A stretch of DNA of 35,009 nucleotides from a virus. The stretch is from the IMG/VR virus record IMGVR_UViG_3300050821_013826, positions 1 to 35,009 of that record; one strand, given 5' to 3'. The notes under the pieces are model-generated. The model searched no databases, was not told the DNA's origin, and was given only the letters and a program-made list of their open reading frames with translations. Shown one piece after another: positions 4,601 to 12,726 of this stretch. Both the position numbers and the translations under genes were made by a program. Each line of letters begins with the position of its first letter. Within the stretch, counting starts at the first letter, position 1.

Positions 4601-4850
4601 AAGCATCACCGAAATCCGGTCACTGGCGCGCAGCCATACCCGGACCGCGCTCAATGTCCTGGTCGGCGTCATGCGATCGAAGGACGCCACCGCCACCGCA
4701 AAAGTATCCGCCGCGAATGCCATTCTGGATCGCGGCTGGGGCAAAGCCACGCAAGCCATCGGCAACAGCGACGACGGTGCGTTGGAACTGATCCATAGAA
4801 TCGAGCGCGTCATTGTCCATCCTGAAAATCCCGACAGCCAGGGTCTTTGA
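4581..4850 (+). CDS. Small terminase subunit-like protein
   Basis: This 89-residue protein sits directly before, and overlaps by 38 bp, the large terminase gene. That is the usual place for the DNA-recognition (small) subunit of the phage packaging motor. The sequence has helical segments (ARSHTRTALNVLVGVMRS and ATAKVSAANAILDRGWGKA) with the AANAILDRGWGKA pattern that I associate with small terminase-like or putative HTH proteins of alphaproteobacterial phages. It is shorter than many TerS proteins, so the call rests partly on position. The start is atgatg at 4581/4584. Confidence 0.65.
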   Translation: MMSKMVRSITEIRSLARSHTRTALNVLVGVMRSKDATATAKVSAANAILDRGWGKATQAIGNSDDGALELIHRIERVIVHPENPDSQGL

Positions 4851-6099
4851 GCCGCTGCTTGCGCGCGCCCGGTACAAGGGTGTGCACGGCGGCAGGGGCT
4901 CGGGAAAATCGCATTTCTTCGGCGAGCTTTTGGTGGAGACCTGCCAGGCCGAGCGCGGCACGCTGGCGGTCTGCATTCGCGAAGCGCAACGGACGCTGGC
5001 GCAGTCCAGCAAGCGGCTGATCGAAAGCAAGATCGCAGCCCTCGGCGTCGGCAGTCAGTTCAAGCTGTTCAATGACAAGATCGAAACGCCCGGCGACGGG
5101 CTGATCATCTTCAGGGGCATGCAGGATCACACTGCCGAGTCGATCAAGTCGCTGGAGGGGTTCGGGATTGCCTGGATCGACGAGGCGCAGAATTTGAGCG
5201 CGCGCAGTCTTTCACTGTTGCGCCCAACCATCCGCGCTGAACGCTCCGAACTGTGGGCGTCGTGGAATCCGCGCCGGCGGTCCGATGCGATCGATGATTT
5301 TCTTCGCGCAAGGCAGCCGCCGGGCGCGATCGTCGTCAACGCCAACTGGCGCGACAATCCGTGGTTTCCATCGGTGCTGGAGCAGGAACGCAAGCTCGAT
5401 CTCGCGCTTTATCCCGACCGCTATCAGCACATATGGGAAGGCGATTACGTCAGGGCCTTCGAGGGCGCGTATTTCGCGCAGATGCTGGGCGAGGCCAGAT
5501 CACAGCAAAGAATCGGAAAAGTCTCCGCCGATCCGTTGCTCCCGATTCGCGCCTTTCACGATATCGGCGGCTCCGGTGGCGTTGCCGATGCCTACGCTAT
5601 CTGGATTGTTCAGTGGGTGGGACAGGAGATTCGCATTCTCGATTACTATGAGCAGGTCGGGCAAGTGCTCGCCTTCCACGTCAACTGGATGCGTGAGCGC
5701 GGCTATGAGAAGGCGATCAACTATCTGCCGCATGACGGCGTGAACGAAAACAACGTCACCGGCAAGAAATACGAGGACCATTGGCGCGAGGCCGGCTTCA
5801 ATGTCGAGCCGCCGGTGAAGAACCAGGGCAAAGGTGCGGCGATGATGCGGATCGAAGCGATCCGCCGGCTGGGGCCGCAGATGTGGTGGAATGAATCGAC
5901 CACCGAGCCGGGCCGGGACGCGATCGGCTTCTACCACGAACGCAAGGACGACATTCGCAACGTCGGCCTCGGACCGGAGCACGACTGGTCCAGCCACGCC
6001 GCCGATGCGCTGGGCCTGATGGCGGTCTGCTACGAGGCTCCGGGGCGGACGGCGAGTTTTAATCGGGCGATCCGGTATGCGGAGCAGGGCTGGGTGTGA
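4813..6099 (+). CDS. terL: Phage terminase large subunit (ATPase-nuclease)
   Basis: This 428-residue PBSX-family (Terminase_3-like) large terminase powers DNA packaging into the capsid and cuts the concatemer. The ATPase domain shows Walker A GGRGSGKS (residues 26-33), an adjacent Q/R-rich segment, and Walker B IAWIDEAQ (119-126) with its catalytic Glu. The C-terminal RNase H-like nuclease half contains FHDIGGSGGVADAYAIW and the terminal DWSSHAADAL, both supplying acidic metal ligands. The length is normal. The start is TTG 4813, overlapping the preceding gene; no ATG fits before the conserved N-terminus. It is intact, although a large accessory insertion follows immediately. Confidence 0.95.
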   Translation: MSILKIPTARVFEPLLARARYKGVHGGRGSGKSHFFGELLVETCQAERGTLAVCIREAQRTLAQSSKRLIESKIAALGVGSQFKLFNDKIETPGDGLIIFRGMQDHTAESIKSLEGFGIAWIDEAQNLSARSLSLLRPTIRAERSELWASWNPRRRSDAIDDFLRARQPPGAIVVNANWRDNPWFPSVLEQERKLDLALYPDRYQHIWEGDYVRAFEGAYFAQMLGEARSQQRIGKVSADPLLPIRAFHDIGGSGGVADAYAIWIVQWVGQEIRILDYYEQVGQVLAFHVNWMRERGYEKAINYLPHDGVNENNVTGKKYEDHWREAGFNVEPPVKNQGKGAAMMRIEAIRRLGPQMWWNESTTEPGRDAIGFYHERKDDIRNVGLGPEHDWSSHAADALGLMAVCYEAPGRTASFNRAIRYAEQGWV

Positions 6100-6139
6100 G
6101 TGGGGCGCGCGCGTACGGTACAAAGCGAGCCACCTCCCG

Positions 6140-6157
6140 AGCTTGGGTACTGGCCGG
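6140..6157 (+). repeat. Left inverted repeat of the 2.8-kb accessory segment
   Basis: agcttgggtactggccgg here matches the reverse complement of 8926-8943 with one mismatch. Next to it is cgcgatttcaaatccagcc (about 6171), which recurs in direct orientation, with several differences, near 8892. Multiple short repeats at both ends resemble the ends of IS21-like elements, but no istAB genes lie between them. Confidence 0.65.
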
Positions 6158-6231
6158 AACCGGCCCGACTCGCGATTTCAAATCCAGCCACCTAGTCTAA
6201 GCCCCCCTTGATCACGCGGAACTGCCTGCGC

Positions 6232-7101
6232 CTATCGGGCGCAGATGGGGTCGGAGCTATCGGTTGGGTGGTAAGCGCGGCAAATGACCAGATCACTGAT
6301 CGTCCATACGCGATCGGCAATCCCGATTGCCATCGCTGGCGTACATTTAAGGCTCTCATGCATTCTAGCGAGATTATAGAACGCGATGTGTAATGAAACT
6401 GCGGCGCAATGGGGATCGAGTTTCTTGCTAAAACCATTGCTCAGGCGCGCGAATCGTTTCGATGACATTCTGATCGTGAGATTTTGCCGTTCGACATAGC
6501 TTGTCGAAAACGTAACAGGATCTCCATTCGCTATCTGCTCTTCGACTGAGATCACTTCGGCCGGCGAGTAACGTCGAGATGCTTCGGTTATGTTCAGGTG
6601 AGTCACGGAGTAAGACCTGTTCACTACTCCATGGGCAACGTTGGGACCAAAAGCATCCCGGATGTAAGGGCGATAGGGATGGAAACCGTCCGTCGTGATT
6701 TCTGGCGTACCAATGACGCGCTCGCGCAAATCCTGGATAAGAAGGTCCGTGTTCTCTCCATCGCGCTTGCCCGTGCGGTAGCTGATGATGGCTCGGGTTG
6801 AGCTGCCAAGAGCGATGAAAGTATTTTGGTCGCCAGTCACGGCGATGTCGCGTCGGAGTTTCTCATGCTGCCGTCTTTTTCGCCCAACGAATGCCCATAA
6901 CTCGTCACATTCGATGAGGTTGGCTCGAACGCCGACCATCATGCGGTCGTGTAGTTCGGCGCAGCCGCGCCCGACTTTGAGCGCCAAGGTGGCGACGGTT
7001 TCGCGGTTAACCCCGGTGACGCGGCCGGCGGCGCGAATACCCATGCCCTCTACAAGGGCGGCGATGACTTCAACTTGTTTCTGATGAGGTAGAAGGTTCA
7101 T
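6232..7101 (-). CDS. IS1-family-like DDE transposase
   Basis: This ~289-residue transposase has an N-terminal helix-turn-helix segment (LVEGMGIRAAGRVTGVNRET) followed by a DDE-type catalytic region. Candidate acidic residues are in ECDELWAFV and TTDGFHPY, with the later YVERQNLTIRM/ARLSNGFSKK block typical of the IS1-like transposases abundant in Bradyrhizobium. ATG at 7101 was preferred; an upstream ATG at 7164 would add 21 residues of doubtful quality. The stop falls in a short GC hairpin (6225-6244). I did not find clean terminal inverted repeats hugging the gene, so it may belong to the larger segment bounded at 6140 and 8943. It is on the strand opposite to the phage genes. Confidence 0.85.
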   Translation of the reverse strand: MNLLPHQKQVEVIAALVEGMGIRAAGRVTGVNRETVATLALKVGRGCAELHDRMMVGVRANLIECDELWAFVGRKRRQHEKLRRDIAVTGDQNTFIALGSSTRAIISYRTGKRDGENTDLLIQDLRERVIGTPEITTDGFHPYRPYIRDAFGPNVAHGVVNRSYSVTHLNITEASRRYSPAEVISVEEQIANGDPVTFSTSYVERQNLTIRMSSKRFARLSNGFSKKLDPHCAAVSLHIAFYNLARMHESLKCTPAMAIGIADRVWTISDLVICRAYHPTDSSDPICAR

Positions 7102-7157
7102 GGCCCAATCCACGAAATGCGGAACTGAGGCCCGGAAGTCTCTGGAAATCTCGCCGA

Positions 7158-7175
7158 ATATCATATATATGATAT
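7158..7175. promoter_or_regulatory. 18-bp perfect AT palindrome upstream of the transposase
   Basis: atatcatatatatgatat is its own reverse complement and lies 57 bp before the preferred transposase start, overlapping the alternative start at 7164. It could be an operator or part of an element end. Confidence 0.5.
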
Positions 7176-7265
7176 CGAACGATCATGGCTTCGGGCCCAG
7201 TCCCTGAGTTGTGATCTAGGGACCCGGTCCCCGTTGACGCGGTGATCGGTTCTGTTTCGAGTCTA

Positions 7266-7342
7266 TGGCGGTCCCGGTTGGACTCGAACCAACAACCCGC
7301 AGTTCGGAAGACTGAAGCTCTATCCAGTTGAGCTACGGGACC
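7266..7342 (-). tRNA. tRNA gene, anticodon UCC by folding, Arg-like body
   Basis: A full 77-nt cloverleaf is visible on the minus strand. The 7-bp acceptor stem is ggtcccg/cgggacc. The D arm is gctc-aactggata-gagc, the T arm is gttgg-ttcgagt-ccaac, the discriminator is G, and CCA is encoded. Strict spacing gives the anticodon arm tcagt-cttccga-actgc, whose outermost pair (27-43) is U-C, placing UCC at positions 34-36 with G37. UCC would read Gly GGA codons. The body and G73 look more like an arginine tRNA. A shifted loop exposing CCG (Arg) would not form a stem. Its place inside a mobile-looking segment suggests an acquired or decaying gene. Confidence 0.85.
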
Positions 7343-7351
7343 ACCCCAAAG

Positions 7352-7381
7352 GGAGGAACTGGGTTGCCGCCCGGTTCCTCC
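7352..7381. other. Strong hairpin beside the tRNA 5' end
   Basis: ggaggaac/gttcctcc (8 bp) is extended by tggg/cccg around a short loop, immediately 5' of the tRNA on its own strand. There is no T-run in either direction, so it is not a standard terminator. It could be an RNA-processing or recombination structure. Confidence 0.45.
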
Positions 7382-7414
7382 TATCCGGTGACGTATTATC
7401 TACTATAACGAATA

Positions 7415-7433
7415 ATTCAGGTCAATACTGAAT
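7415..7433. promoter_or_regulatory. Candidate operator of the HigB/HigA-like operon
   Basis: The perfect inverted repeat ATTCAG-N7-CTGAAT lies in an AT-rich stretch 32 bp before the toxin start and just after a TATAAC that could be a -10 box. Antitoxins of the XRE type usually repress their own operon by binding such palindromes. That role here is inferred from position. Confidence 0.5.
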
Positions 7434-7465
7434 CTGCCCCCTTGTAGATATCCTCTTAAATCGAT

Positions 7466-7867
7466 ATGTGTATGACGTCGTGGACGTTCTACGACTACGT
7501 CGAGGCTGGCGGTCGGAACCCAATCCGGCACTGGCTCGATTCCATGCCCCCATGCGATAGCGAAAAAATTGACACGAGACTGCGGTACATGGCGGCAATG
7601 CCGCGATGGCCTGAGAAGTGGGTTTCGAAGTACAAGGGTACCGATGAGATTTTTGAATTTCGGATTGTTGGCAACAAAGTGCAGTACAGGCCGCTCGGAA
7701 CGTATTACGGCACCAAGCAATACCTCCTTCTCGCCGGAGCAATCGAGAGGGGTGATAAAATTCCAAAGAGCGATATTGAAACTGCAGAGCGGCGTTTAAG
7801 TACCGTTAGAAGAGAGTCCGGCCATGTCATCCTCCACAAATACGACGGCGATCCAGATTTGGGGTAA
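7466..7867 (+). CDS. RelE/HigB-like (Gp49-type) toxin
   Basis: This 133-residue protein resembles phage-derived Gp49-like HigB toxins, which are ribosome-dependent mRNA interferases of the RelE fold. Visible features are an N-terminal FYDYVEAGGRNPIRHWLDSMP segment, a KYKGTDEIFEFRIVGNKVQYRPLG core (strand-rich, with Lys and Arg at expected catalytic positions), and the YLLLAGAIERGDKIP segment that matches the family's LxxGxxKK-like end. The C-terminus is longer than usual. Its 3' end overlaps the antitoxin gene by 44 bp. Codon use is AT-richer than in the phage genes, suggesting transfer. There is no good ribosome site; ATG 7472 is an alternative start. Confidence 0.72.
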   Translation: MCMTSWTFYDYVEAGGRNPIRHWLDSMPPCDSEKIDTRLRYMAAMPRWPEKWVSKYKGTDEIFEFRIVGNKVQYRPLGTYYGTKQYLLLAGAIERGDKIPKSDIETAERRLSTVRRESGHVILHKYDGDPDLG

Positions 7868-8441
7868 GCTGGAGAACAAGGAGTATCGAGACTCCTTCGT
7901 TGCTTCCAATATCTCTAACACCGTGTCTTCTCAAATCTTCACGATGCGAGAACAGCACGGTTGGACACAGAAGCAACTCGCACAACGAGCGGGCATGGGG
8001 CAATCGCGGATTCCAGCCTTGGAAGACCCGAACCTTGAGAATTTTGAAATCGGTACATTGAAGCGGATCGCGTCGGCCTTCGATGTTGCGCTCGTCGTCC
8101 GATTTGTGCCGTTTAGTGAACTAACAAATTGGACGGCGCGTCTCTCCGAAGAAAGTCTATTCGTTCCAGACTTTGCGAACGATAGACTAGAGCTAGAGCC
8201 GGTTTCCGCAAACGTGGAGTTTACTGTCAAGATCGTGAATATAAATGCTGCAGCTATTCCAAACCCAAATCCCATCGCGGGTTCCATCGGCTTTGCTAAC
8301 GCTGATCATAGTTACGGTATGCTCACTATGGTCAGCCAACCGACAATGTATTCGCCGGCGTCACACCAAATTACGAACAGCAGTCCGCTCAACGTTGCAG
8401 AAATGATGTTCCCGCTTCAGGGAGACCACGTTCGTGGTTAA
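7824..8441 (+). CDS. XRE-type antitoxin-like regulator with extended C-terminus
   Basis: This 205-residue protein carries an HTH_XRE domain at about residues 35-95. It shows IFTMREQHGWTQKQLAQRAG, then MGQSRIPALED, then IGTLKRIASAFDVALVVRF, the classic HigA-like core that ends in a dimerising strand. Simple HigA antitoxins are about 100 residues. This one adds ~110 residues (VPFSELTNWTARLSEESLFVPDF and onwards) of unknown role. It overlaps the toxin gene upstream and the DUF6941-like gene downstream (8 bp), so the three genes form one operon. It probably neutralises the toxin and represses the operon through the palindrome at 7415. Confidence 0.75.
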   Translation: MSSSTNTTAIQIWGKLENKEYRDSFVASNISNTVSSQIFTMREQHGWTQKQLAQRAGMGQSRIPALEDPNLENFEIGTLKRIASAFDVALVVRFVPFSELTNWTARLSEESLFVPDFANDRLELEPVSANVEFTVKIVNINAAAIPNPNPIAGSIGFANADHSYGMLTMVSQPTMYSPASHQITNSSPLNVAEMMFPLQGDHVRG

Positions 8442-8880
8442 GTTGATGCCAAAGCAGTTTGTCGTTTGCGATGACATTCGACGTGAAATGAGTGGCAAGG
8501 AAATTCTGATCGGTGTCTACGGCAGCGACATTGCAGTTGCAGGCTTTCCCACTCAGTTGGCCTTGTCCTATTGGGTTCAGGTCTACTCGCCAGAAGCTGT
8601 TCTTTCGCCCGCCACTATAGATTTTCGGTTGATGGGTGGAGAGGATGCCCAGTTCTTTGCCGTTTCCGTTCAGGTAATGATCCCTAGACCAGGTCTTGGG
8701 GCAATATCGCTTCCGGCGATTCCTTTCAGTCTCCAAATCCCGACGCGCTTAATACTTCAGATGAGACAGAGAGATGGGGATTGGGAGAAGGCTGGCGAGT
8801 TCGGAGTAGATAGAGGTACTCCGCTCCCCAATTTTAGCGCCGCTGCGGCTGCCGCAGCAGCCGCTGCTGTCCGCACGTAA
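8434..8880 (+). CDS. DUF6941-like protein with poly-Ala tail
   Basis: This 148-residue protein opens with the KQFVVCDDIRREMSGKEILI and GVYGSDI pattern that I associate with DUF6941, a family of unknown function that often sits beside XRE regulators. The body is beta-rich (FRLMGG, FAVSVQVMIPRPG, FSLQIPTRLILQM). The C-terminus ends in an unbroken run of ten alanines encoded by gc-rich codons. The GTG start at 8434 overlaps the previous stop, with AGGGAG ten bases upstream; ATG 8446 is an alternative. Third-gene position suggests a role tied to the toxin-antitoxin pair, but no activity can be assigned. Confidence 0.65.
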   Translation: MVKLMPKQFVVCDDIRREMSGKEILIGVYGSDIAVAGFPTQLALSYWVQVYSPEAVLSPATIDFRLMGGEDAQFFAVSVQVMIPRPGLGAISLPAIPFSLQIPTRLILQMRQRDGDWEKAGEFGVDRGTPLPNFSAAAAAAAAAAVRT

Positions 8881-8944
8881 AATCCGGCCACCGCGGTTTT
8901 CAAAACCGGCCACTAGGGGTCGAAACCGGCCAGTACCCGAGCTT
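8881..8944. repeat. CCGGCCA repeat cluster, right end of accessory segment
   Basis: Three spaced copies of (t/a)ccggcca occur at 8884, 8906 and 8926. The last forms the inverted partner (8926-8943, ccggccagtacccgagct) of 6140-6157. The cluster begins at the stop codon of the DUF6941-like gene. It looks like the multi-repeat end of an IS21-like element that has lost its transposase genes. Confidence 0.6.
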
Positions 8945-9466
8945 GAACCGGACGCACAATAGTGAACAGGACTTGAACGAGAATCTAAGCAACACTGCCA
9001 AGGCCAATCCGATGGAGATCATCGCTGGCGTCCTCAAGGCAGTGGCCTGCCGAACGATCCTGCTCTTGTCGCCGACCTCAGCGAGAAGGTCCCTAGCGAG
9101 CCTGCGCGGGAAGCAAAAAGTTGAGGCAATCGTCAAATCGGGGACGGTAGCAGGAGCCAAATGGCGCCTCGTGCCCATGCCGATGGCAGATGACAGGGAC
9201 ACCCTTTTCAGCGACAAATGGCCCGAACAAACGCCTTTGCAGCCAAATTCGTACCAATTTGGTCAAAAACGGCAATTTTTCACTATTACATTATTTCAAT
9301 CGCGATATGGTTGTACGCACGCCGGAGTGTGACCGTTGAATCACGCTTCGGCCGAAATCAGCAACCACATTGGTTGAACGACGTTGGTACTTACTCCGAC
9401 GTAGTGCAGTGTAAATAACGGTTAACGGTTTTGGCGCAAGAGTCGCATGCGCCGCAGGGGTTCAAA
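8945..9466. other. 520-bp stretch with no convincing gene
   Basis: Short open frames exist on both strands (a 129-residue one on +, a 105-residue one on -), but neither has a ribosome site, domain or consistent codon bias. The stretch follows directly on the repeat cluster and may be element debris. AT content rises towards 9300-9420. Confidence 0.5.
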
Positions 9467-9652
9467 ATGACCGCAATCCTCCAAATGGTCTCCGGATGGG
9501 TCCGGCATAGTTGGAGCGGCGGCGGGACTTCCGGCCAGGACAAGGTCGGCGCCTATAAGGCTGACTACTCCCGCCTCACGGACGAGCAGCTCGACCAGGA
9601 AGATTTTGAGTGTGTAGAGCTGCTCAAGCATAGCCGGCCGGTTTCGCGTTAG
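9467..9652 (+). CDS. Small acidic protein upstream of the MazF-like gene
   Basis: This 61-residue hypothetical protein has an ATG at 9467 with AGGGG six bases upstream. The C-terminal half is acidic and helical (YSRLTDEQLDQEDFECVELL). It lies 24 bp before the MazF/PemK-like gene and could be its partner, but it has no AbrB, MazE or RHH signature that would mark it as an antitoxin. It is unrecognised otherwise. Confidence 0.4.
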   Translation: MTAILQMVSGWVRHSWSGGGTSGQDKVGAYKADYSRLTDEQLDQEDFECVELLKHSRPVSR

Positions 9653-9676
9653 ACGCGAGTATGCTAGTGCCCCTAT

Positions 9677-10132
9677 ATGGGGCTGACACTATTCGATCCA
9701 GCGACCGCACCAGAGGTGTACGATATAGTTTGGTGCAAATGGCCCCGACGGGAGGACAAACTCGCGCCGGGGAATTGGGTGAGGTGTGTGCTCGTTGTCG
9801 ACGTCCGCCGAATGGTCGATGAGCGAACTGACCAAGAATATGCGCTCGTTACCGCGCAATATGGTACCGGCAAGGAAAATCTAGAATTTCACGAGCTTGC
9901 TAACAACGTTGTCATTGAGCGCCATGAGTTTCGTGATCTGGGCCTGCACAAACCCACTGTATTTCAGATGGATCTGAGAAATCGCAAGCGGCTACCATGG
10001 TGCGTGGAGTATTTTGTCCCGAAGCCATATTTGCTTTCGGAGAACATCGTCGCCGGCCGATTGAATGAGAGCCAACAAACGAGATTCCATAATTGCTTTA
10101 TGGCAAGGAATCTTCGATTCCCACTGCCTTAG
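9677..10132 (+). CDS. MazF/PemK-like toxin family protein
   Basis: This 151-residue protein has the layout of MazF/PemK-type ribonucleases. It has an early strand YDIVWCKWPRRED, then a PGNWVRCVLVVDVR segment corresponding to the PGKVRPVLVV-like signature, and a later VTAQYGTGK strand. The remainder (FHELANNVVIERHEF onwards) is less typical. The family folds as an SH3-like barrel and cleaves mRNA. A non-toxic SH3-like cousin cannot be excluded, as the active-site Arg and Ser/Thr pattern is only partly clear. It sits at the end of the accessory region, just before repeat unit B and the portal. A near-palindrome cccctatatgggg overlaps its start. Confidence 0.55.
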   Translation: MGLTLFDPATAPEVYDIVWCKWPRREDKLAPGNWVRCVLVVDVRRMVDERTDQEYALVTAQYGTGKENLEFHELANNVVIERHEFRDLGLHKPTVFQMDLRNRKRLPWCVEYFVPKPYLLSENIVAGRLNESQQTRFHNCFMARNLRFPLP

Positions 10133-10261
10133 TGATAACAGCCTCAGCTAGCAACGTCGCTGCCAATATCCCCTCGACACCGGATGTGCAAGCGCCGCGC
10201 TGATAGTCATTAGATATCGAAGCCACTGCGACTGTTCTGTCGGCAAGGTCCGCCATCCGGA

Positions 10262-10343
10262 TTGACATGTCGGGCAAATCACCTGCATATTAGCACCATC
10301 GCAAGAATTGAGCCCGCGCCGGGAAACCGGTCGCGGGCTTTTT
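10262..10343 (+). repeat. Promoter-terminator repeat unit, copy B
   Basis: This is the second copy of the ~82-bp unit. It has a perfect -35 consensus TTGACA at 10262, an 18-nt spacer and CATATT at 10286, then about 20 nt to the hairpin. It is almost identical to copy C through the stem, with a GAAA loop. Flanks differ, so only the unit itself is conserved. It precedes the portal gene. Confidence 0.78.
10311..10343 (+). terminator. Rho-independent terminator in unit B
   Basis: The stem agcccgcg + ccgg pairs with ccgg + (bulged t) + cgcgggct, has a GAAA tetraloop, and is followed by a run of T. It would stop transcription arriving from the accessory region before the portal operon. Confidence 0.85.
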
Positions 10344-10410
10344 AGTCGGCTGTATTTCACAGCGCCCGTCGTCAGGCGATACCTCCCCGGTCATCAACCA
10401 ACGCCTTTCG

Positions 10411-10440
10411 CGCGAGCCGTCAGCGGCTCGTCGGCTCGCG
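10411..10440. other. GC hairpin in the portal leader
   Basis: cgcgagccg and cggctcgcg (9 bp) flank a 12-nt loop that itself contains a cggctc able to form an alternative stem. It lies 37 bp before the portal ATG with no T-run, so an RNA leader structure is possible. Confidence 0.4.
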
Positions 10441-10477
10441 ATGACGGCGACATCCGATTGATCCGAAAGAAAACCAG

Positions 10478-11065
10478 ATGCCCAAAATGTCTCCGCTCGA
10501 TCTGAAAGCCATGCTGGCCTCGGAAAAGGCCAACGCACTGGCGGCGATCTCGGCCGCCAGGCTGATGGAAGAGCGCGCCGATGCGATGGATTATTATCTC
10601 GGCGACATGCGCAAGGACATGCCGGCGCAGGATGGACGCAGCCGCGCGGTCTCGACCGATGTCGCCGACACCATCGAAGGCCTGATGCCGAACCTGATGG
10701 ATATCTTTGCCGGCTCCGACGAGGTGGTGCGGTTCGAGCCGGTCGGACCCGAGGACGAGGCCGCGGCGCAGCAGGAGACCGACTACGTCAATCACGTTTT
10801 CATGCAGCAGAACCCCGGCTTCATGATCCTGTATTCCTTCATCAAGGACGCGCTGCTCTCCAAGGTCGGCATCGTCAAGGTATGGTGGGAGGAACGCGAG
10901 GAAGAGAGCCGCGAGACCTATTACGACCTCACCGACGATCAGTTCGCGCTATTGGCGCAGGCCGTGGTCGAATCCGGCGGCGCTATGAAGATCGTGGCGC
11001 ACACGATGCACGACGCAGGCGACGTGCTGGAAAACGGGCCGCGCCAATCGGAGGCGACGAGTTGA
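10478..11065 (+). CDS. Phage portal protein, N-terminal part
   Basis: These 195 residues match the N-terminal region of large P22/SU10-like portal proteins, the dodecameric ring through which DNA enters and leaves the head. Typical segments are MEERADAMDYYLGDM, VSTDVADTIEGLMPNLMDIF and QETDYVNHVFMQQNPGF, followed by FIKDALLSKVGIVKVWWEE. The frame stops at 11063-11065 and the rest of the portal continues from an overlapping ATG (TGATG) in the next frame. This is therefore either a frameshifted gene or a two-polypeptide portal with coupled translation. It is the first gene after repeat unit B and its leader hairpin. Confidence 0.85.
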   Translation: MPKMSPLDLKAMLASEKANALAAISAARLMEERADAMDYYLGDMRKDMPAQDGRSRAVSTDVADTIEGLMPNLMDIFAGSDEVVRFEPVGPEDEAAAQQETDYVNHVFMQQNPGFMILYSFIKDALLSKVGIVKVWWEEREEESRETYYDLTDDQFALLAQAVVESGGAMKIVAHTMHDAGDVLENGPRQSEATS

Positions 11066-12726
11066 TGAACATGACCACTCCCTTGCTGGCTCCGCCGTTG
11101 CCGCAGCCGGTCGCATCCGCGGTTACCCATGACGTCGTCATCGTCACCACCCGAAAGCTTGCCCAGGCCAAAGTGCTCGGCGTTCCCCCGGAGGAATTCG
11201 GCATCGAGCGCGGCGCCCGCAACATCCGGAATTGCAATTACTGCTTCCACGAAGTCGTCACCAGGACCGAAAGCCAGTTGATCGCGGAAGGGTTTGACGA
11301 GGAGCAGATCAAGTCGCTCAGCGACTACACCGGCAATACCGAGATCGAGACGCTGGCCCGCGACACGGTGGATGAGCATTTCAGCACCACCGCCGGGGGC
11401 GTGAATTCCGCCGCGCGCCTGGTTCGAATCACCGAGCACTACGTGCGGATGGACTACGAGGGCCGCGGCCGCGCTTGTCTTTACCAGGTCGTTACCGGCG
11501 GCGACCAGGGCGAAGTCCTGCGCAAGGACGGCAAGGAATGCGTCACGCCGTTCGACGCCATTCCGTTTGCGACGACGACGCCGGTGCCGGTGACGCATCG
11601 TTTCTTCGGCCGCTCGATCGCCGATCTGGTGATGCCGGTGCAGCGGGAGAAAACCGCGCTCAAGCGCGGCGCGCTCGACAATCTCTATCTGCACAACAAT
11701 CCCCGGGTCGAAGTGGCCGAGGGCATGGCAGGCCCCAATACGCTCGATGATTTGCTGGTATCACGCCCCGGCGGGGTGGTCCGCACCAAGCAGCCCGGCG
11801 GGCTGAACTGGCAGGTGGTGCCGGATATCACCACCTCGATCTATCCGATGCTGCAATATCTCGATGCCGAACTGGAGACCCGCACGGGCCTCGCCAAGCA
11901 GACCCAGGGCATCGACGCCGACGCTCTGCAGAACCAGTCCGCCACTGCCGTGGCGCAAGTCTTTAACGCCTCGCAAATGCGGATGAAGCTGATCGCCCGC
12001 ATCATGGCCGAGGGCGTGCGGGACATGTTCGCGCTGCTGCACGCCACGATCCGCAAGCACGGCCAGCAGCAACAGACCGTGCGCCTGCGCAATGGCTGGA
12101 TCAATGTCGATCCCAGAGGCTGGAAAACCCGCGACGACATGACCATCAATGTTGGCCTCGGCTCCGGCGGCAAGGCCCAGCAATTCGCGCAGACGATGGC
12201 CATTGCAAACGTGCAGAAGCAGATGCTGGCCGGTGGCAAGAGTAACCTGGTCGGCGACGTCCAACTCTACAACACCGCGGCCGAGCTGACGCGGATCATG
12301 GGCCACAAGAACCCGGATCAATTCTTCAACGATCCCTCCGCCATCAATCCGCAAACCGGGCAATTGCAGCATCCGCCACCGGCGCCGCCCTCACCGCCGC
12401 CGGATCCGAAGCTGCTGGCGGCGCAGGCGAGGGCGCAGACCGATCAGGTCATCGCCGCGCACCAGGCCCGGATCGAACAACAGAAAGCGCAGAACGCCGC
12501 CGTCCATTTGCAGGTCAAGACCCAGGCCGAAATCGAGCTGGCCCGGATCAAGGCCGATCTCGACGCCAGGATGGCGCTGCTCGACGCGCATTTGAAGGCC
12601 GCGACCGAAGCGCGGAAGCCGCCGCGTTCATACCCGCCGGACGCGCGAAAAGCGAAGGACGGTCACCATTATGTGGCCGACCCTAATCGTTCTGGCAAAT
12701 ATTTGTTGGTTGTTCATCATGCCTGA
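11065..12726 (+). CDS. Phage portal protein, C-terminal part
   Basis: This 553-residue continuation of the portal starts at ATG 11065, whose first base is the last base of the upstream stop. Conserved portal blocks are VPPEEFGIERGARNIRNCNY, FGRSIADLVMPVQREKTALK, ETRTGLAKQTQGIDADALQN and AVAQVFNASQMRMKLIARI. The C-terminal ~130 residues are a Pro-rich hinge (HPPPAPPSPPPDPKLL) and a helical, charged tail (KTQAEIELARIKADLDARM). Together with the upstream part it gives about 750 residues, a normal length. Its 3' end overlaps the HNH protein gene. The frame is also open back to 10882, so a single indel between about 10980 and 11065 would restore one gene. Confidence 0.88.
   Translation: MNMTTPLLAPPLPQPVASAVTHDVVIVTTRKLAQAKVLGVPPEEFGIERGARNIRNCNYCFHEVVTRTESQLIAEGFDEEQIKSLSDYTGNTEIETLARDTVDEHFSTTAGGVNSAARLVRITEHYVRMDYEGRGRACLYQVVTGGDQGEVLRKDGKECVTPFDAIPFATTTPVPVTHRFFGRSIADLVMPVQREKTALKRGALDNLYLHNNPRVEVAEGMAGPNTLDDLLVSRPGGVVRTKQPGGLNWQVVPDITTSIYPMLQYLDAELETRTGLAKQTQGIDADALQNQSATAVAQVFNASQMRMKLIARIMAEGVRDMFALLHATIRKHGQQQQTVRLRNGWINVDPRGWKTRDDMTINVGLGSGGKAQQFAQTMAIANVQKQMLAGGKSNLVGDVQLYNTAAELTRIMGHKNPDQFFNDPSAINPQTGQLQHPPPAPPSPPPDPKLLAAQARAQTDQVIAAHQARIEQQKAQNAAVHLQVKTQAEIELARIKADLDARMALLDAHLKAATEARKPPRSYPPDARKAKDGHHYVADPNRSGKYLLVVHHA

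Follow-up and report, generated by a model that had tools for sequence, protein, structure and literature searches.

The repeat-bounded segment studied here, which lies in a viral contig (IMG/VR record IMGVR_UViG_3300050821_013826, analysed as a window of 35,009 nucleotides), is very probably a single complete transposon from a family that is related to IS1 and carries passengers. The element occupies positions 6146-8937 (2792 bp) between two perfect 8-bp copies of CGAGCTTG, and its terminal repeats agree at 12 of 12 positions. When the window was scanned blind for inverted repeats enclosed by exact 8-bp duplications, a single structure emerged (6138-8945), where 0.0004 such structures are expected from base composition alone. 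A repeat search of the window recovered inverted arms at 6140-6166 and 8917-8943 (27 nt, 81% identity), and the G+C content was 53.2% within the element versus 62.6% and 58.0% in the 5 kb on either side. The initial annotation had proposed a mobile segment bounded by 18-bp inverted repeats; the perfect duplication and the matching terminal repeats indicate that the segment is real and mobile, while the 18-bp repeat is only in part an element end, consisting of the terminal repeat GGTACTGGCCGG together with an AGCTTG part that belongs to the target duplication. The transposase, tRNA, HigB-like and HigA-like genes that it had placed inside the segment were recovered as Pfam domains and as a tRNA-Gly(tcc). 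The features are as follows.

6138..6145, no strand: target duplication CGAGCTTG, left copy (duplication scan)
6146..6196, plus strand: L-type end, terminal repeat GGTACTGGCCGG followed by two inverted inner repeats (profile match)
6232..7164, minus strand: IS1-like DDE transposase (Pfam DDE_Tnp_IS1), conserved start M22 at about 7101
7165..7265, minus strand: leader between tRNA and transposase, with two hairpins that covary in 15 relatives and are divergent in the window
7266..7342, minus strand: tRNA-Gly(tcc), anticodon TCC (Gly codon GGA), CCA encoded
7466..7867, plus strand: HigB-like toxin (Gp49/DUF891, Pfam), with a relative in element L180
7824..8441, plus strand: HTH antitoxin, HigA-like (HTH_3, Pfam)
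8434..8880, plus strand: third cargo gene, DUF6941-like according to the initial annotation; phrog_31406 match, no Pfam family
8880..8937, minus strand: R-type end with direct repeats in three copies, GTACTGGCC/GTGGCC/GTGGCC, spaced by about 22 bp
8938..8945, no strand: target duplication CGAGCTTG, right copy (duplication scan)
8964..8978, no strand: GAAC-N7-GAAC, a box of LexA type lying 26 bp beyond the R end of the window element

The first two cargo genes have the order and domains of a HigBA toxin-antitoxin pair, whose activity is predicted from these features. For the third gene, the proposed DUF6941 assignment found no backing among Pfam families; the gene shows weak similarity (41% over 29 residues) to one that adjoins an end of this kind in locus L006. 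A scan of promoters and terminators gave matches at chance level.

The window transposase reached 26.2 bits with Pfam DDE_Tnp_IS1 (PF03400, cut-off 24.1) and 64.2 with NCBIfam NF033558 (IS1, cut-off 100). It has its closer relatives in L004, L005 and L107 (47-58%) and more distant ones in L007-L111 (35-38%). Its conserved C-terminal FRVIKGG lies in another frame, ending near 6192 (region 6192-6232), so that this copy may be inactive now. The structure that AlphaFold predicted for this transposase was of poor quality (pLDDT 52) and was left unused. At E 1e-60 a related transposase was present in 40 of 397 genomes of the order, mostly in single copy.

The ends are asymmetric and multi-repeat, beginning with GGTACTGGCC in the window type and mostly with GGTAGTGTCTCAGT or GGTAGTGGGTCAGT across the family. 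In profile searches L-type ends were also present in L004, L107, L096 and L100, while an R-end pattern search matched 4 viral contigs and 20 genome contigs. The latter were labelled as Hyphomicrobiales or its members (Afipia, Bradyrhizobium, Pseudolabrys, Rhodoplanes, Rhizobium and Xanthobacteraceae), except for two labelled only as Alphaproteobacteria. Both L004, a phage contig with an element upstream of terminase, and L107 have paired ends with matching 8-bp duplications. A second end kind, with GTCCTAATTTGAAAT repeats at similar spacing, lies near recA at L105:1877-1935 and L105:3190-3250, and GGT..TGTCC ends like this second kind occur in L195, L303, L310 and L311.

Across the family, 44 of 61 transposase matches lay between matching GG-ends flanked by a perfect duplication of 8 bp, compared with 30 of 1220 shuffles. 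Leaving out the weak-ended L196 and a repeated row for both L166 and L198 gives 41 distinct elements, which span 2.3-4.7 kb and carry 1.4-4 kb of cargo, frequently genes for toxin-antitoxin systems or defence; since every one far exceeds the 0.9-kb transposase, all carry other DNA. Ten of 20 further window-type loci were likewise enclosed by a duplication and ends (for L301 the second-listed end pair, 5721-10444, was used, its ends fitting the family). Pfam assigned Peptidase_M78 (13), P63C (8), SDH protease (3), Panacea, HipA-like, HigB-like and NYN (2 each) and Fic (1) among 119 cargo ORFs (125 listed, minus 8 left out, with two L007 genes added), and the best-matched PADLOC model was RmrA (RosmerTA), with 9 matches among the cargo ORFs. 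In clustering of the cargo, 58 of 70 clusters were singletons. Ends related to those of the window element do enclose other cargo in relatives.

An empty site was found for one relative. The element of L107, located before recA, sits between two copies of AAATTCTC at a position where L225 has the flanks joined (GTACATG...TATATATCTG, 8 bases, GAAAAGAACATATTGCG). No empty site was found for the window element, and the gene at 9677-10132 had no relative in the viral contigs searched. For L152, matches of the empty-site query in 10 other genomes began at least 344 bases inside, covering no junction. As separate observations, L172:6148-11761 holds two 2795-bp tandem elements that share one common 8-bp duplication beside a recA-like gene, and directly left of the recA-linked element of L107 is an ORF (L107:54-932) that resembles an IS1595-type transposase, together with a neighbour gene.

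The initial annotation had considered a non-autonomous or nested element with IS21-type ends. IS21 has multiple terminal repeats, and the window element resembles it in this respect; the spacing of about 22 bp between its inner repeats is reminiscent of IS21 ends, and L325, L334 and L335 have the same ends without a transposase gene. Such features would fit a cargo transposon moved in trans by IS21 istAB with the IS1-like gene as a passenger. However, istA and istB are absent among the ORFs of the window element, istAB was not recognised beside the ends in the ORF lists of L003-L007, L105 and L107, and the end type tracks the transposase clade with 8-bp duplications throughout. We therefore rejected an IS21 origin, for which no istAB was recognised, as highly improbable. 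By contrast, sequence comparison shows the transposase clades agreeing with the end sequences and with 8-bp duplications. The IS1-like transposase thus seems to belong to the element itself, and neither IS21-type ends nor a non-autonomous status need be invoked. That two nested or chimeric elements make up the segment was the least probable reading we considered. Repeated use of one site is known in the family (two ends at GTTTGATC in L004, the tandem of L172), yet L107 has the same order of end, transposase, tRNA, cargo and end with matching duplications, L156 has the same set, and the duplication and inverted-repeat scan detected no further intact pair of ends within the window segment.

A tree built from 75 transposases gives the window clade 27 members with a support of 1.0, and a tRNA or tRNA-like gene lay just upstream of the transposase in 20 of these 27 versus 2 of the 48 outside the clade (L157 and L189). 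ARAGORN, together with a covariance model (R1) based on seven of these tRNAs, showed the same arrangement, on the same strand, in 14 of another 20 window-type loci, with a tRNA-transposase spacing of mostly about 150-170 bp; in L295 and L299 the T-arm and CCA alone were visible by eye. On these sequence data, the tRNA is a recurrent part of the window transposase clade and no chance cargo. In 22 sequences the acceptor stem was 94.2% paired with both-sided changes at 7 of 7 pairs, the T stem 100% paired and the anticodon stem 56% paired, and the covariation score was 0.613, compared with 0.183 after shuffling and no more than 0.240 after sliding. The D-stem value (39.8% pairing) was left out, being at least partly an alignment shift. 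Read by eye, the anticodon stem is bulged with an 8-nt loop containing UAC in many members. One of the two covarying leader hairpins directly precedes the transposase start and, in our own reading, holds the Shine-Dalgarno region.

Whether such a gene still decodes was weighed against a regulatory role. The body of the window tRNA is of the tRNA-Arg kind, sharing 82% and 78% identity with host tRNA-Arg(tct), but the anticodon is TCC. It scores 62 bits to the Rfam tRNA model, which favours decoding, and ARAGORN draws a cloverleaf for it, as L157 and L189 also fold into cloverleaves with 7-nt anticodon loops. A working tRNA carried as cargo to help translation of the phage or the element is nevertheless a doubtful reading, given that anticodon stems are broken or bulged in most clade members, that a passing tRNA lay beside the transposase in only 2 of 10 loci searched with Rfam, and that the near-fixed spacing to the transposase counts against it. 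The retained acceptor and T half, the relaxed anticodon arm and the hairpin beside the start codon instead suggest, with less confidence than the other steps proposed here, that the tRNA or tRNA-like leader would govern processing or translation of the transposase mRNA.

The location of relatives points to a preferred chromosomal site. Among complete window-clade elements, 11 of 15 lay directly upstream of recA (within 130 bp), and in all 11 the box GAACATATTGCGAAC began exactly 13 bp out, that is, the 8-bp duplication plus 5; by our own reading of the end sequences, the R-type end faces recA in each of them. The motif GAAC-N7-GAAC, which we take to be the alphaproteobacterial LexA box, occurred within 100 bp in 13 of the 15, compared with 44 of 3000 random position pairs. 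L195 lay 14 bp from a different box, and L004 and L303 had no box within 150 bp. Of the 36 other elements, 10 had a box within 150 bp and 2 were at recA. The pattern CCAGTACC-N(2-32)-GAACATATTGCGAAC was found in 45 of 391 family genomes, once each, and the reversed pattern in none of the 391; with the gap left free, 37 junctions had a gap of 13, six of 14, and one each of 12 and 17. R-type profile matches (E 0.01) were obtained in 10 of 30 recA loci from relatives, including that of L107, at or near the same point upstream of recA, versus none of 10 control loci. When 20 of the 45 recA junctions, chosen irrespective of transposase, were examined, 3 proved to be complete short transposase-less elements with a perfect duplication (control 29 of 2000), and no far end was found in the other 17. 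SOS boxes as general targets were also considered and rejected: in 381 genomes, any GAAC-N7-GAAC beside an end away from recA gave 13 matches versus 18 for the reversed control, and general use of such boxes is therefore unsupported. The copy in the window lies away from recA, and the LexA-type box nearest to it, at 26 bp rather than 13, possibly occurs there by chance.

It could be argued that recA adjacency reflects a single ancient insertion inherited vertically, as all recA-sited elements belong to a single order and the far end is unrecognisable at many junctions (17 of 20). We regard this as unlikely. The 14 recA elements (11 plus 3) have perfect 8-bp duplications, each a different 8-mer, and an old insertion is unlikely to have kept such intact, differing 8-mers; moreover, cargo varies among recA-sited elements, and an empty recA site exists in L225. 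With confidence evenly divided, we propose that the transposase targets the recA LexA-type box in one orientation with a 5-bp spacing, under control of a tRNA-derived leader, and that prophages ferry off-target copies, of which the window element would be one. The transposase would bind the end repeats, take as its address either the sequence of the box or LexA bound to it, and insert with an 8-bp stagger. As the box of the recA promoter is left intact, the recA site may be a safe harbour, and phages would carry the element between hosts. Our confidence is highest in recA targeting and decreases through the safe-harbour advantage and LexA as a guide to the role of the tRNA.

IS1 elements have GGT ends and 8-9 bp target duplications, and classical IS1 is short and passenger-free, with two ORFs joined by frameshifting. 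The present family resembles IS1 in apparent DDE transposase homology, including the ERxNLTxR block, and in its 8-bp duplication and GGT ends. Unlike classical IS1, the window element is 2792 bp long with a single transposase ORF and cargo, and the family has a single ORF of about 290 aa, a size of 2.3-4.7 kb and passengers in every complete copy found; a tRNA leader, an NCBIfam score under the cut-off and, in one clade, apparent recA targeting also set it apart. Tn7-like elements insert in one orientation, keeping a set distance to a conserved gene that stays unbroken, as is the case here; by contrast, only one IS1-like transposase is involved, the proposed target is a promoter box rather than a gene end, and no TnsABCD-like protein was found among the four proteins of the window element. 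A further related class is that of the tIS, passenger-carrying insertion sequences with a single transposase and non-transposition genes (PMC7986276, PMC9330008). Having passenger genes inside IS ends, the window segment is classed as such a passenger-carrying IS, while the tRNA or tRNA-like module, the toxin-antitoxin or defence cargo in many members and the oriented insertion at one chromosomal site distinguish the family from other tIS. Titles and abstract openings in the literature, with subscription papers mostly beyond reach, contained no description of this transposon family. A one-transposase element with an address would represent a simple natural form of targeted transposition to a conserved site in many Alphaproteobacteria, in which toxin-antitoxin and defence genes travelling as cargo become linked to the region of recA/SOS control and to phage carriers. 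A leader derived from a tRNA and retained with covariation next to a transposase would be an unexpected use of the tRNA fold.

In the phage, the element does separate terL (4813-6099) from the portal pieces (from 10478), as had been noted, with about 1.5 kb of other sequence between its right side and the portal. Insertion points on phage contigs differ from those at recA, being between terL and portal in the window and by terminase genes in L004 and L005. From at least 600 terL relatives 80 were taken. The distance from terL to the first portal piece exceeded 1 kb in 11 of 21 loci (L008-L028), and a profile search at E 0.05 found none of these transposon ends in L008-L087, so that their terL-portal inserts are other inserts; the terL-portal gap is a general insertion region for other genes. 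The window portal appears as two overlapping ORFs, 10478-11065 (N-terminal) and 10882-12726 (C-terminal), and the portal parts are up to several kb apart in many terL relatives. A GTTTGATC or TTTTGATC site next to the terminase genes is common to L004 and L005. A palindromic target, GTTTGATCAAAC, occurs near terminase twice in L004 (1409-1500 and 5365-5450) and slightly changed in L005 (2235-2320), and this terminase-side target is accompanied by a duplicated terminator-like flank.
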